Source of the DNA: Oceanicaulis sp.
Lineage (GTDB): Bacteria; Pseudomonadota; Alphaproteobacteria; Caulobacterales; Maricaulaceae
Direction: 5' to 3'
DNA length: 37,553 bases
NCBI GenBank assembly: GCA_020832735.1
Contig: JAFIEB010000103.1
Span: 1-37,553, forward strand
Position 1 is the stretch's first letter. Each line of letters opens with the position of its first letter. Of the stretch, positions 31,660-36,092 are shown one piece after another. The notes under the pieces are model-generated. The model made no database searches, was not told where the DNA came from, and saw only the letters and a program-made list of their open reading frames with translations. Made by a program: the position numbers and the translations under genes.

Positions 31660-32952
31660 TCAGACCGGGCCGGGGCCGCTGTCCTCGCGCCCGTCAAGCG
31701 CATGGGCGGCGGCGGCGCGTATACGTGGATGCATGAAGGCCAGCACCACCGCGCCCAGCGCCAGGCCCGTGTTCAGCACGAACGGCGCGGCCGGCGCCAC
31801 CACCTGATAGAGCCACAGCCCCGTCAGGGGCGCGATCAGGAAGCCGACGCCTGCGGTGGCCGTGGTCAGGCCCGCCACCCGGCCCTGCTCCTCGGGCGAG
31901 ACCGCCAGCGAGGCGCCGCCGGTGAATCCGGAGCGGGCGAGGCCGAATCCGAAGCTGTTGAGCATGAAACCGACCACGATGGCCGCGTAATTGGGCGCAA
32001 ACACCATCTCTGCATTGCCCGCCGCCACCAGCACCGCGCCCATGATCATCAGCACGCGCGGGCTGGTTTTCAGCGCCGGGATCACCGCCAGCTGGGCGAA
32101 AATCAGCGCCGCCGCGCCCGCCGTCAGCGCCACCCCGGCCAGCTGCAGCCCCTCTTCAGGACCGATCTCCAGCCGGTCCATCACATAGAAGGACAGGGCC
32201 TGCAGACTCGCCGCCTGGGATAACCAGAGCGCGCAGCCATAGATCATGAAGCCGGTCAGGCGTGGGTCCAGCGCAAAGCGGAACTGCACCAGCGGATTGA
32301 TCGGCCGGCCCTGGCGTTTGGGCGGGGTTTTCTCCGGCAGGGTCAGGCGCACCACCAGCGCGCCCGCGCCCACCAGCGCCGCAATCAGGATCATGAAAGG
32401 GGCGATGCCGATACGCTCCACAAACCCCGCCGCCAGCGCCGGTCCGATCATCCCGCCCAGCCCGAACGCCGCCGTAAGCCCGGCCAGCGCGCTGGTGCGC
32501 TCGAAGGGAGTGGTGCGGTCAGCCACATAAGCCTGGGCGGCCGGATTGGTGGCCGAGCCCAGCCCGCCGAACAGGCAGCGCGCCAGCGCCATCGCCACGA
32601 TCGCGGCCATTGGCGGCAGAAGGCCGACCTGTCCCGCCCAGGCGCCCGCCGCGAACACCAGTGTGGACAAAGCGAAGCTCGCCAGCCCGAACACGATCAG
32701 AGGCCGCCGGCCCAGCCGGTCCGACAGCGCGCCCCAGACCGGGCTCATGGTCAGGAACAAGAGCGCCGACAGGGTGTAAATGGCGCCCACATACACCTCG
32801 GCCACCTCCAGCTCGCGCGCCAGCGGCGGCAGAATGGCGAACAGCATGGAATTGCCGATGCCCGTAGCCATCAGGCACACGAACAAAAGCCGGAACGCGC
32901 GCCGGCGCGCCTGCGGACCGGAAGGATTGGCGGGATCAAACGGCGGGCTCAT
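31660..32952 (-). CDS. MFS transporter
   Basis: Inner-membrane efflux-type transporter. 430 aa, twelve hydrophobic helices. MFS motif A is GALSDRLGRRPLIVFGLA (about 75-92) and motif C-like GGMIGPALAAGF lies in helix 5. N-terminus MSPPFDPANPSGPQARRRAF is cytoplasmic. Similar to TetA/multidrug (DHA1-type) exporters. Substrate unknown. Divergent from the ATP-grasp gene across about 90 bp. Confidence 0.92.
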   Translation of the reverse strand: MSPPFDPANPSGPQARRRAFRLLFVCLMATGIGNSMLFAILPPLARELEVAEVYVGAIYTLSALLFLTMSPVWGALSDRLGRRPLIVFGLASFALSTLVFAAGAWAGQVGLLPPMAAIVAMALARCLFGGLGSATNPAAQAYVADRTTPFERTSALAGLTAAFGLGGMIGPALAAGFVERIGIAPFMILIAALVGAGALVVRLTLPEKTPPKRQGRPINPLVQFRFALDPRLTGFMIYGCALWLSQAASLQALSFYVMDRLEIGPEEGLQLAGVALTAGAAALIFAQLAVIPALKTSPRVLMIMGAVLVAAGNAEMVFAPNYAAIVVGFMLNSFGFGLARSGFTGGASLAVSPEEQGRVAGLTTATAGVGFLIAPLTGLWLYQVVAPAAPFVLNTGLALGAVVLAFMHPRIRAAAAHALDGREDSGPGPV

Positions 32953-33043: not shown

Positions 33044-33073
33044 ATGAAGACCCAGGCGAACCAAACCTCATGA
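33044..33073 (+). CDS. Possible 9-residue leader ORF before the ATP-grasp gene
   Basis: ATG 33044 opens MKTQANQTS and ends TGA at 33071-33073, its stop overlapping the ATP-grasp ATG (33070) as ATGA. TAAGG lies four bases upstream of the leader ATG, while the main gene has no SD of its own. Termination and re-initiation would therefore couple the two. May equally be chance. Confidence 0.35.
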   Translation: MKTQANQTS

Positions 33074-34383
33074 CCCGGCAGCCCCGGCCGCGCGTGCTGC
33101 TCACTTATTCGCGCTCGCTGATGGCGCTGACGGCGGCCCAGTCCCTGTCCGATCACGGCATTGACGTGGTGGGCTGCGACAGCGTGGACATGACCGTGCT
33201 GCAGTTCTCCAAGCACTGCAGGGGCCACAAGCTGGTCGCCGATCACCGCGAGAAGCCTGAGACATTCATCAATGATCTCATCAAGGCGGCTCATGCGCTG
33301 CGTCCGCGCGGCGACGCCCCCTATGTCCTGATGCCGATCTTTGAAGAGACCTCGGTCATTGCCCGGTTTGCCGGCCAGCTGCGGGAGGCCGGATTGATCG
33401 TGGCCGCGCCCGATCATGGCTCTATCGTGCAGGTGGAGCCCAAGGACCGGCTGCCGGCTGCGGCTGAAGCCGCCGGGGTGGCTTTCCCGCGCACGATCTA
33501 TCCCGATTCCAGGGAGGCGCTGGACGCGGCGCTGGAAAGCCTCGCCTTCCCCCTCATCACCAAGCCGGCGCGCGGCGTGGGCGGACGGGGCGTGGCGCGC
33601 CATGACAGCGCCGAGAAGCTGAAAGCCTGGCTGGAGGCCAAGCCGCCGGCCAGCAAGGTGGAGTGGCCGCTCCTGCAGGAGGTGGCGCCAGGGGATGATT
33701 ACTGCTTCTGCGCCCTGTGCGAGGACGGCGAGCTGCGCGCCTGGATGACCTATCGCAGCCTGCACGGCTTTCCGCCCAGGCGCGGCGCGGGCGTTCTGCG
33801 CGAGACCGTGGACAGCGCCCCCTTCAAGGACGCGGCGGCGACGCTGCTGCGCCATCTCAAATGGTCGGGCGTGTGCGAGATCGACTACCGCTGGACCGGA
33901 CAGGCGAGCGATGCGCCCGCCCTGATCGAGGTCAACCCGCGTTTCTGGGCGGGCCTGTTCCAGTCGGTGGCCAGCGGGGTGGATTTCCCCTGGCTGCTCT
34001 ACCGTCAGGTCACCGGCGATCCGGTGCTGGAGCCGCCCAAGGTGACCATCGGCCGACGCTCCAAAGTCCCCTTGCTGGCTTTCATCAGCGCGGCCCAGAC
34101 AATCGCCAAGGAAGATTCCTATTTCAAGACTCTCTCGGAACGATGGAACAAGCTGGCTGACCGCGAACAGAAGGGCTTTGGCGCCTTCGTCAACGGCCTG
34201 TTTGATGTGAAGTCTCTGGGCGCCTATCTCAAGGCGCTGAGGGCGACCCGCGAACAGACCGCCGATGCGGCGACCGACTTCATCCCTCTGGACGATCCGG
34301 GCACCACGCTGGGCGTCCTGTTTGTTTTGTCCTCCATGATCCGGCGCGGCGAGTTGCCGCCAGAGCTGAGATTCGATGAGTGA
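33070..34383 (+). CDS. ATP-grasp ligase
   Basis: ATP-grasp enzyme likely joining a carboxylate to an amine through an acyl phosphate, with carbamoyl-phosphate synthetase-like/PylC-type layout. Pre-ATP-grasp domain VLLTYSRSLMALTAAQSLSD (9-28) and GIDVVGCDSVDMTVLQFSKHC; ATP-binding loops PLITKPARGVGGRGVARHD (about 160-178), EWPLLQEVAPGDDYCF; metal-binding ALIEVNPRFW (about 281-290). A C-terminal extension of about 130 residues (DSYFKTLSERWNKL, then DFIPLDDPGTTLGVL) is not part of the core. 437 aa. Overlaps the next gene by 8 bp, so the two are coexpressed. Substrates unknown. Confidence 0.9.
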   Translation: MTRQPRPRVLLTYSRSLMALTAAQSLSDHGIDVVGCDSVDMTVLQFSKHCRGHKLVADHREKPETFINDLIKAAHALRPRGDAPYVLMPIFEETSVIARFAGQLREAGLIVAAPDHGSIVQVEPKDRLPAAAEAAGVAFPRTIYPDSREALDAALESLAFPLITKPARGVGGRGVARHDSAEKLKAWLEAKPPASKVEWPLLQEVAPGDDYCFCALCEDGELRAWMTYRSLHGFPPRRGAGVLRETVDSAPFKDAAATLLRHLKWSGVCEIDYRWTGQASDAPALIEVNPRFWAGLFQSVASGVDFPWLLYRQVTGDPVLEPPKVTIGRRSKVPLLAFISAAQTIAKEDSYFKTLSERWNKLADREQKGFGAFVNGLFDVKSLGAYLKALRATREQTADAATDFIPLDDPGTTLGVLFVLSSMIRRGELPPELRFDE

Positions 34384-35116
34384 ACTGACCTCCGCTGTGC
34401 GCCGTCCGGTCATCGCCGTCACCACATCGGCCGGAACCGACTATGGCGTGTTCGCCCTGATCTGGGCGGGCGTGCGCCTGGCCGGCGGGCGCGCCGTGCG
34501 GGTCACCTCGCGCACGCCGGATGCCCGGCCGGAGGCGTTTGACGGCCTGATCCTGGCCGGCGGGCTGAATGTTCATCCCGATGTCTACGGGCGGGACGTC
34601 AATCCCCACGCCCGCTATGACCGCGGCCGCGACGGGCTGGAGCTGGAATGGGCGCAGGCCTTCTGGGCGCTCAAGCGCCCGGTGCTGGCGATCTGCCGCG
34701 GCATGCAGCTCCTCAACGTCGCGCGCGGCGGCGCGGTGAGCGATATCCTGGATGAGGAGGTGCTCAATACGCTGCCCTCGACACCGCTGGGATACATGCT
34801 CTACCGCAAGAATGTCGACATCACGCCCGGCACAAGGCTGGCGCAGCTGTGGGGGCGGACCCGCGCGCGGGTCAATTCCCTGCACCGCCAAGCGGTGGCC
34901 AATCTGGGCGAGGATCTGCGCGTCAGCGCGCGCGGCGAGCATGGCGAGGCGCAGGCCCTGGAAGGTCCGCCGGAGGTGCTGCGCATGGCCGTGCAGTTTC
35001 ATCCCGAGATGATGCTCCACCGGCGCGACATGCGTGCCCTGTTCCGCGCGCTGGTCGATGCTGCGCGCCGCCGGGATGGTGAATCGCCCGCTAACGCCGC
35101 GCAAACCGGGCTTTAA
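34376..35116 (+). CDS. Class I glutamine amidotransferase-like, PuuD/gamma-glutamyl hydrolase family
   Basis: Peptidase C26-type hydrolase that cleaves gamma-glutamyl bonds. Catalytic Cys107 in AICRGMQLLNVARGG; His209 and Glu211 in VQFHPEM; NSLHRQAVANLG is the family's substrate-loop motif; LILAGGLNVHPDVYG (58-72) matches the oxyanion segment. 246 aa. Start overlaps the ATP-grasp stop by 8 bp. Pairing with a ligase hints at make-and-trim chemistry on a gamma-glutamyl compound, or at nitrogen donation; this is inference. Confidence 0.9.
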   Translation: MSELTSAVRRPVIAVTTSAGTDYGVFALIWAGVRLAGGRAVRVTSRTPDARPEAFDGLILAGGLNVHPDVYGRDVNPHARYDRGRDGLELEWAQAFWALKRPVLAICRGMQLLNVARGGAVSDILDEEVLNTLPSTPLGYMLYRKNVDITPGTRLAQLWGRTRARVNSLHRQAVANLGEDLRVSARGEHGEAQALEGPPEVLRMAVQFHPEMMLHRRDMRALFRALVDAARRRDGESPANAAQTGL

Positions 35117-35225: not shown

Positions 35226-36092
35226 ATGTTTCAGATCGTCGGCGTCATAGCCGTGTTCTCGCTGGTGTTTGGCGGCTTCATGCTGTCGGGCGGCAATTTC
35301 GAGATCATCCTGAAGGCGCTGCCCTTCGAGATGATGATGATTGGCGGGGCGGCCGTGGGCGCCTTCCTGATCGGCAGCGCGCCCAAGACCGTCACCAAGA
35401 CGCTGGGCGATTTCGGCAAGATCGTTGCCGGCGCGAAATGGAAGCAGCAGGATTATGTCGACCTGCTCACCCTTCTGTTCCAGCTGACCAAGACGATGAA
35501 GACCAAGGGCGTGATCGCGCTCGAGGCGCATATCGAGAAGCCGCATGAGAGCGCCATCTTCACCGCCTATCCGCGCATCCTGCAGGATCATTTCGCGACC
35601 GATTTCATCTGCGACACGCTGCGCATGATGACCATGAACCTGGAGGATCCCCACCAGGTCGAGGACGCGATGGAAAAACAGCTGGAAAAGCACCATCACG
35701 AGGCGGCCGCGCCGGCCCATGCGGTGCAGCTGATGGCTGACGCCCTGCCGGCGCTGGGCATCGTGGCGGCGGTGCTGGGCATCATCAAGACCATGGGCGG
35801 CATCGACGCGCCCCCGCAAATTCTCGGCAAAATGATCGGCGGGGCGCTGACCGGCACCTTCCTGGGCGTGTTCCTGGCCTATGGCTTCGTGGGCCCCTTC
35901 GCCACCCGCCTGCAGGCGGTCTATGACGAGGAGGCGATCTTCTACCAGATCATCCAGAACGTGCTGGTCGCCCACCTTCACGGCAACGCCGCCCAGATCT
36001 CGGTGGAGATCGGCCGCGGCGCCGTGCCCAGCGCGTTCCAGCCGAGCTTCATCGAGCTGGAAGAAGCCATCTCCACGGTGCAGGCGGCTTAA
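35226..36092 (+). CDS. motA: Flagellar motor stator protein MotA
   Basis: Proton-channel stator subunit. 288 aa, four membrane helices: FQIVGVIAVFSLVFGGFML, FEMMMIGGAAVGAFLIGSA, and the later pair LPALGIVAAVLGIIKTMGG and GALTGTFLGVFLAYGFVGP; the Pro in ALPALGIV is the conserved one lying near the channel. The cytoplasmic loop (residues 60-180) has the acidic/basic residues that contact FliG. GGTGGG-type SD precedes the ATG. Normally followed by motB; the next gene here is mnmC, so motB is elsewhere. Confidence 0.96.
   Translation: MFQIVGVIAVFSLVFGGFMLSGGNFEIILKALPFEMMMIGGAAVGAFLIGSAPKTVTKTLGDFGKIVAGAKWKQQDYVDLLTLLFQLTKTMKTKGVIALEAHIEKPHESAIFTAYPRILQDHFATDFICDTLRMMTMNLEDPHQVEDAMEKQLEKHHHEAAAPAHAVQLMADALPALGIVAAVLGIIKTMGGIDAPPQILGKMIGGALTGTFLGVFLAYGFVGPFATRLQAVYDEEAIFYQIIQNVLVAHLHGNAAQISVEIGRGAVPSAFQPSFIELEEAISTVQAA

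Follow-up and report, generated by a model that had tools for sequence, protein, structure and literature searches.

The ATP-grasp ligase gene and the Peptidase_C26 gene that overlap in the window (the whole 37,553-nucleotide stretch of DNA analysed here) form a conserved unit, the C26 gene being adjacent or fused to the ligase gene in 34 of 36 loci. Judged by sequence comparison, this pairing is real and old, and the unit is probably a previously undescribed enzyme pair that makes or controls a protective small molecule. Our preferred reading, to which we give a probability of roughly 0.4, is that the two proteins make up a single amide-forming enzyme of two parts, in which the C26 unit would feed ammonia or an amine to the ATP-grasp unit.

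Gene layout of the ligase-C26 pair

The window is part of contig 16 of a genome totalling 2.78 Mb, whose closest named relatives are Alkalicaulis, Oceanicaulis and Glycocaulis. The ligase (P0001, 437 aa) is encoded on the forward strand at positions 33070-34383, from an ATG at 33070 to a TGA stop at 34381-34383. An earlier placement of its start at 33044 was incorrect, as the ATG found there is in another frame and no start codon precedes 33070 in the frame of the ligase. The partner, a Peptidase_C26/class-I GATase-like protein (P0002, 246 aa), is encoded at 34376-35116 of the same strand, and the ORF coordinates confirm the predicted 8-bp overlap of the two genes (ATGAGTGA, 34376-34383, forward strand). 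This overlap is ordinary by itself; the linkage across relatives is what goes beyond chance. Compared with three relatives, both genes are under purifying selection (dN 0.06-0.11, dS 0.44-0.57).

The ligase belongs to the ATP-grasp superfamily

Pfam matches of P0001 above the cut-offs were ATPgrasp_Ter (36.6 bits), ATP-grasp_3 (25.6 bits) and CPSase_L_D2, and Amidoligase_2 (PF12224) was not among its matches up to an E value of 0.1. The ATP-grasp core (residues ~111-320; 33400-34029, forward strand) was delimited from the Pfam matches and the predicted model. In a 21-row alignment, K125, K165, G171, G172, G174, D210, D272 and E287-x-N289-x-R291 are invariant, residues which we take, from general knowledge of ATP-grasp enzymes, to bind ATP and magnesium. 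Profile, fold and the expected ATP/Mg residues thus all place P0001 in this superfamily. The solved structure that best matched the 21-row ligase profile was the large chain of carbamoyl phosphate synthetase (CPSase; 1.9e-16). The AlphaFold model of the ligase, built on 7 sequences (mean pLDDT 72.8, weak past residue ~323), gave ties at Z 20-23 among solved folds, including PurK, 2pn1, CPSase, PylC, PurT and biotin carboxylase. The original prediction had called the ligase PylC-like. The family part of this label is right, while the label itself is too narrow, PylC being one of many tied folds: like PylC, the window ligase is predicted to be an ATP-grasp protein with an N-terminal domain (in the modelled fold, Z 22.2 with an rmsd of 3.4 over 291 residues), but PylC is absent among the best 60 of its 73 profile matches.

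The predicted C-terminal extension is present, residues ~321-437 lying past the ATP-grasp core. Between the window and 16 distant rows, residues 321-400 are variable (24% identity) and residues 405-433 are conserved (55% identity). This conserved tail (DP..LG.LFVLSS..R.G.LPPE; 34282-34368, forward strand, from the alignment) runs into the C26 part in fused relatives, and it may therefore be a docking or linker element before the C26 part. A phage origin of the ligase was also considered and rejected, since no match was found in phage records and none of the 9 pattern stretches in viral contigs was a relative.

The partner is a Peptidase_C26 protein with a complete triad

The family label of P0002 was borne out as well. 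The protein scored 132.1 bits against PF07722, compared with a cut-off of 20.5 bits, and 48.6 bits against the typical GATase profile. Its nearest solved relatives, both by sequence and by modelled fold, are Lin1909, SpuA and PuuD, with 3fij matching at 1.3e-22; the AlphaFold model used for the fold comparison was built on 7 sequences and is modest (pLDDT 65.5). The nucleophile C107 (AICRGMQ; 34694-34696, forward strand) and H209-P-E211 (35000-35008, forward strand), which supplies the remainder of the triad, were located by alignment; C107, H209 and E211 are invariant in 7 rows, and the C-x-G-x-Q and HPE motifs are present in all 34 C26 sequences compared. Among the solved C26 matches, those named for a function, PuuD and SpuA, either are gamma-glutamyl hydrolases or bear an amidotransferase label, and neither has a synthetase as partner.

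The two genes stay linked, and are fused in one lineage

Ligase matches at an E value of 1e-15 or better were found in 48 of the 299 genomes of the same order. Of these, 40 reach 1e-44 or better and count as strong; the remaining 8 are weak and partial, matching the ATP-grasp core. Class-wide, only 2 of 385 genomes matched at 1e-40, one of them the window's own, and the ligase also occurs on plasmids of Phenylobacterium zucineum and Xanthobacter. The ligase is thus nearly confined to the window's order. A lack of linkage in relatives had been named beforehand as the finding that would count against the pair; the genes stayed linked in the 34 of 36 loci, a set in which three genomes appear twice and in which adjacency was read from tblastn, because simple gene finding left some genes of short loci undetected. 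Of the two exceptions, L033 ends at a contig end and L022 is a second copy in genome G194, whose other ligase copy (L049) is complete with C26. Gene order is constant in the linked loci, with the ligase first and the catalytic residues kept, and the spacing ranges from overlaps of 8 or 11 bp, through a few to 33 bp downstream, to fusion. Unlike the two genes of the window, 9 of the 36 loci encode single fused proteins of ~665-715 aa, and a tenth fused frame (L084) was found outside the 36 loci.

Several plasmid loci were recorded alongside. On the P. zucineum plasmid NC_011143, typed as conjugative, the pair occurs twice (L059 and L064), each time in a stress island containing lon, Hsp20, a ZIP transporter, a phosphoglycerate-mutase-like gene, the ligase and C26. 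On pXAUT01 of Xanthobacter autotrophicus Py2 (L060, 10001-12104), the ligase part and the C26 part do not share a reading frame, which may reflect a split gene or a frameshift, and the ligase has no gene entry in the PLSDB table. A Nitratidesulfovibrio vulgaris plasmid (L061) encodes a distant ATP-grasp relative (30.6%) with no C26 match, in a row with acyltransferases, diaminopimelate decarboxylase and the PEP-CTERM kinase PrsK. The Streptomyces plasmid NZ_CP109590 (L110) has a non-ribosomal peptide synthetase preceded by a C26 gene (38.5% to P0002), which also overlaps an SHMT-like gene.

A related C26 partner accompanies an unrelated ligase

Relatives of P0002 with ~40% identity sit behind Amidoligase_2 (PF12224) genes in other Alphaproteobacteria. 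The Amidoligase_2 query matched 18 of 289 class-wide genomes, which served as the positive control, and none of the 299 genomes of the window's order. C26 lies directly behind the amidoligase in 16 of the 17 genomes examined of these 18, the miss being G392 (L076/L125) and the genome outside the check being G393. The same order was seen in 15 of 16 18-kb loci, plus L070 and three plasmid loci, and no pathway neighbours of these pairs were conserved beyond local synteny in the 16 loci. Links between amidoligases and peptidases were reportedly described by Iyer et al. in 2009.

In a tree of 63 C26 proteins, three groups were resolved: 43 ATP-grasp-linked proteins (98/94), 12 amidoligase-linked proteins (91/88) and 8 others, which include E. 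coli PuuD. The tree was built without second copies of genomes already present, the row of G213 (L086) and the loci lacking a C26 match (L022, L033, L061, L002 and L076). The ATP-grasp-linked and amidoligase-linked groups adjoin and stand jointly apart from the 8 others (99/93), the deepest splits being only moderately certain because several branches are long and the outgroup is small, further known C26 genes lying outside the tree. All 10 fused C26 rows fall in one 11-row set (97/92), whose eleventh member is L060. Thus, as far as the tree indicates, the same C26 partner is kept while the ligase is swapped between ATP-grasp and Amidoligase_2 systems. The two kinds of pair share the ligase-then-C26 order with adjacent or overlapping genes, neighbouring C26 groups, and the form of isolated two-gene modules. 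They differ in that the amidoligase family is unrelated to the ATP-grasp ligase of the window, and in that the Amidoligase_2 pairs show no enrichment of stress-type promoters (box in 2 of 19).

No pathway gene or exporter travels with the pair

In 20 loci of ~18 kb each, no pathway genes recurred with the ATP-grasp pair beyond local synteny, and no oxidase or dehydrogenase was conserved beside it. The pair could be assigned to no known pathway. Among open-licence papers, the subscription literature lying mostly outside this set, none combined an ATP-grasp protein with a C26/PuuD-type hydrolase or an amidoligase with a gamma-glutamyl hydrolase.

In the window, the pair is flanked by an MFS transporter gene (31660-32952) and motA (35226-36092). 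The suggestion that the divergent MFS exporter moves the product did not hold. This MFS gene was present in only 2 of the 20 18-kb loci (L039 and L040, close relatives) and was not found in L008 or L009; it is common only to close relatives whose genes around the site are arranged alike. Moreover, in the genus-mates G257 and G272 (L113, L117), the MFS gene adjoins motA and the pair is absent between them, leaving an empty site. The exporter was therefore rejected as a part of the system. G272 carries a pair elsewhere in its genome, 38% identical, so the unit was moved or exchanged within the genus. Only weak, chance-like direct or inverted repeats were found at the locus.

Many family members are probably linked to the general stress response

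The regulator PhyR recurs near the pair in 5 of the 20 18-kb loci. An EcfG-type sigma factor was found in 4 of these 5 by clustering and in all 5 by tblastn, and a HisKA_2/HWE kinase lies near the pair in 4 of the 5. In 12 of the 45 genomes that carry the ligase, PhyR lies no more than ~4.2 kb away from it; these 12 belong to four genera and include one case with a C26-less ligase copy (G194). This second copy (L022/L048) lies beside a divergent PhyR/EcfG pair.

EcfG promoters are given, in passages of three papers, as GGAAC-N16-CGTT or GGAAC-N17-20-GTT, often less than 100 bp from the start (PMC7083833, PMC3892343, PMC6599016). An EcfG-type box, GGAAC-N15-17-nGTT, was found upstream of the ligase in 16 of 42 regions, compared with a mean of 0.31 and a maximum of 2 in 500 dinucleotide-preserving shuffles, a test that overstates independence because the rows share ancestry, some of the 42 regions coming from near-identical genomes. 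These regions are at least 120 nt long, which excludes L091 (85 nt, box present); another upstream set also included L013 and L084. In control genes of the same loci, the box was found in 12 of 277, four of them before phyR or ecfG. The boxes upstream of the ligase come from eight genera and lie at varying distances; in the fused genes of genus g28, GGAAC is at a nearly fixed place and the GTT is not kept. Among 39 loci with a known genome, the box was not associated with the presence of PhyR (15 of 32 with PhyR and 2 of 7 without; Fisher p = 0.44).

No EcfG box was found upstream of the window copy, and no full PhyR was found in the window genome. At an E value of 1e-10, a PhyR match is absent from the window genome (G000) and its genus-mates G168, G223, G232, G682, G034, G128 and G203 (near-complete), and present in the genus-mates G272, G213, G681, G257 and G683, and PhyR thus seems, from these genomes, to have been lost in part of the window's genus. 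Among the open-licence papers matched on these subjects, none of those on EcfG mentioned ATP-grasp or glutamine amidotransferase. On the evidence of neighbours and promoters, many members of the family are likely to be part of the general stress response of Alphaproteobacteria, the window copy not included. The stress link is probably a property of the family that was lost in the window's lineage.

Proposed mechanism and alternative readings

We propose that the two proteins form one catalytic unit, because their order is constant, their coupling is close and fusions occur. The ATP-grasp unit would activate a carboxylate with ATP to give an acyl phosphate, while the Cys-His-Glu triad of the C26 unit would attack glutamine or a gamma-glutamyl amine to form a glutamyl thioester, which would then be hydrolysed. 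The ammonia or amine set free would pass to the ligase and yield an amide. That the product is a stress-protective amide is a guess. The overall logic would be that of CPSase (CarA/CarB), with the usual glutaminase replaced by a PuuD-type glutamyl hydrolase. CPSase also combines an ATP-grasp synthetase with a class-I triad glutamine hydrolase, its large chain being the partner of a class-I glutaminase, and it gave the best PDB profile match. It differs from the pair in that its large subunit has two ATP-grasp halves, whereas the 437-aa window ligase has one, and in that the window partner is a C26 protein rather than a typical GATase; in the relatives' fusions, moreover, the ligase comes first. 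Several points weigh against this reading: the hydrolase or amidotransferase naming of PuuD and SpuA, the C26-less ligase copy of G194, and the window's own lack of an EcfG box and a full PhyR. We also know of no C26 protein that has been proved to be an ammonia donor.

The original prediction had the hydrolase trimming what the ligase builds, and C26 trimming the ligase product and C26 feeding the ligase are both live readings. The fusions without a conserved pathway gene, together with the kinship of the ligase to CPSase, favour the transfer of ammonia or an amine; the family background of C26 favours an opposed ligase/hydrolase switch. In such a switch, by analogy with the glutathionylspermidine synthetase/amidase (GspSA) of E. 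coli, the ATP-grasp unit would make a conjugate, possibly of the gamma-glutamyl type, and C26 would cut it until stress, for example oxidation of the cysteine, stopped the cutting and let the conjugate build up. Passages of one paper describe GspSA as a single protein joining an amide ligase and a Cys amidase of opposing activity in a stress context, where H2O2 oxidises the amidase cysteine to sulfenic acid and the product accumulates (PMC6272389). The partner in the window does belong to the C26 family with a full triad, the two activities are fused in relatives, and stress-type promoters lie upstream of relatives' ligases, all in line with a switch. On the other hand, it is to CPSase that the ligase comes closest by sequence, and opposed activities within one unit are rare; the GspSA amidase is of the CHAP family, and both its amidase and its ligase families differ from those of the window pair. 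We hold this switch to be a close rival, below even odds but only slightly less probable than the transfer reading.

A sequential pathway of the Puu/Spu type appears unlikely. In it, by analogy with PuuA and PuuD, the ligase would gamma-glutamylate an amine, other enzymes would modify it and C26 would remove the group, serving amine use or detoxification. The named solved relatives nearest to the C26 protein are indeed PuuD and SpuA, which share its triad, and one Amidoligase_2 locus (L065) adjoins an aldehyde dehydrogenase. However, the 20 ATP-grasp neighbourhoods hold neither a conserved oxidase or dehydrogenase nor Puu-type neighbours, PuuD of E. coli and other unlinked C26 proteins fall outside the ligase-linked tree group, and the window ligase is an ATP-grasp protein, whereas the gamma-glutamyl ligase of Puu/Spu systems is glutamine-synthetase-like. 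Moreover, fusion would make little sense where an intermediate must leave and come back. As short gene overlaps are frequent in bacteria, the two genes might also be unrelated neighbours that happen to overlap; this is refuted by the 34 linked loci out of 36, the nine fusions and the single tree group of the linked C26 genes, and we regard it as extremely improbable.

Biological meaning

A ligase together with a glutamyl hydrolase is a kind of system already known, and the window pair is a new variant of it. Tentatively, and below even odds, the findings may be drawn together as follows: Caulobacterales would have a previously undescribed stress enzyme, an amide ligase of ATP-grasp and C26 parts that exists as a fusion in one lineage and makes or gates a small-molecule protectant under PhyR-EcfG control. 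Sister systems would have Amidoligase_2 in place of its ligase half, which would make "ligase plus C26" a general module with exchangeable ligases. If this is true, a widespread, so far unassigned pair would gain a testable role, as an amide-forming or amide-gating step in the alphaproteobacterial general stress response, a regulon many of whose members await assignment. It would also be a natural case of one cutting partner paired with two unrelated ligases, and the natural ligase-C26 fusions would be ready for structure determination and assay.
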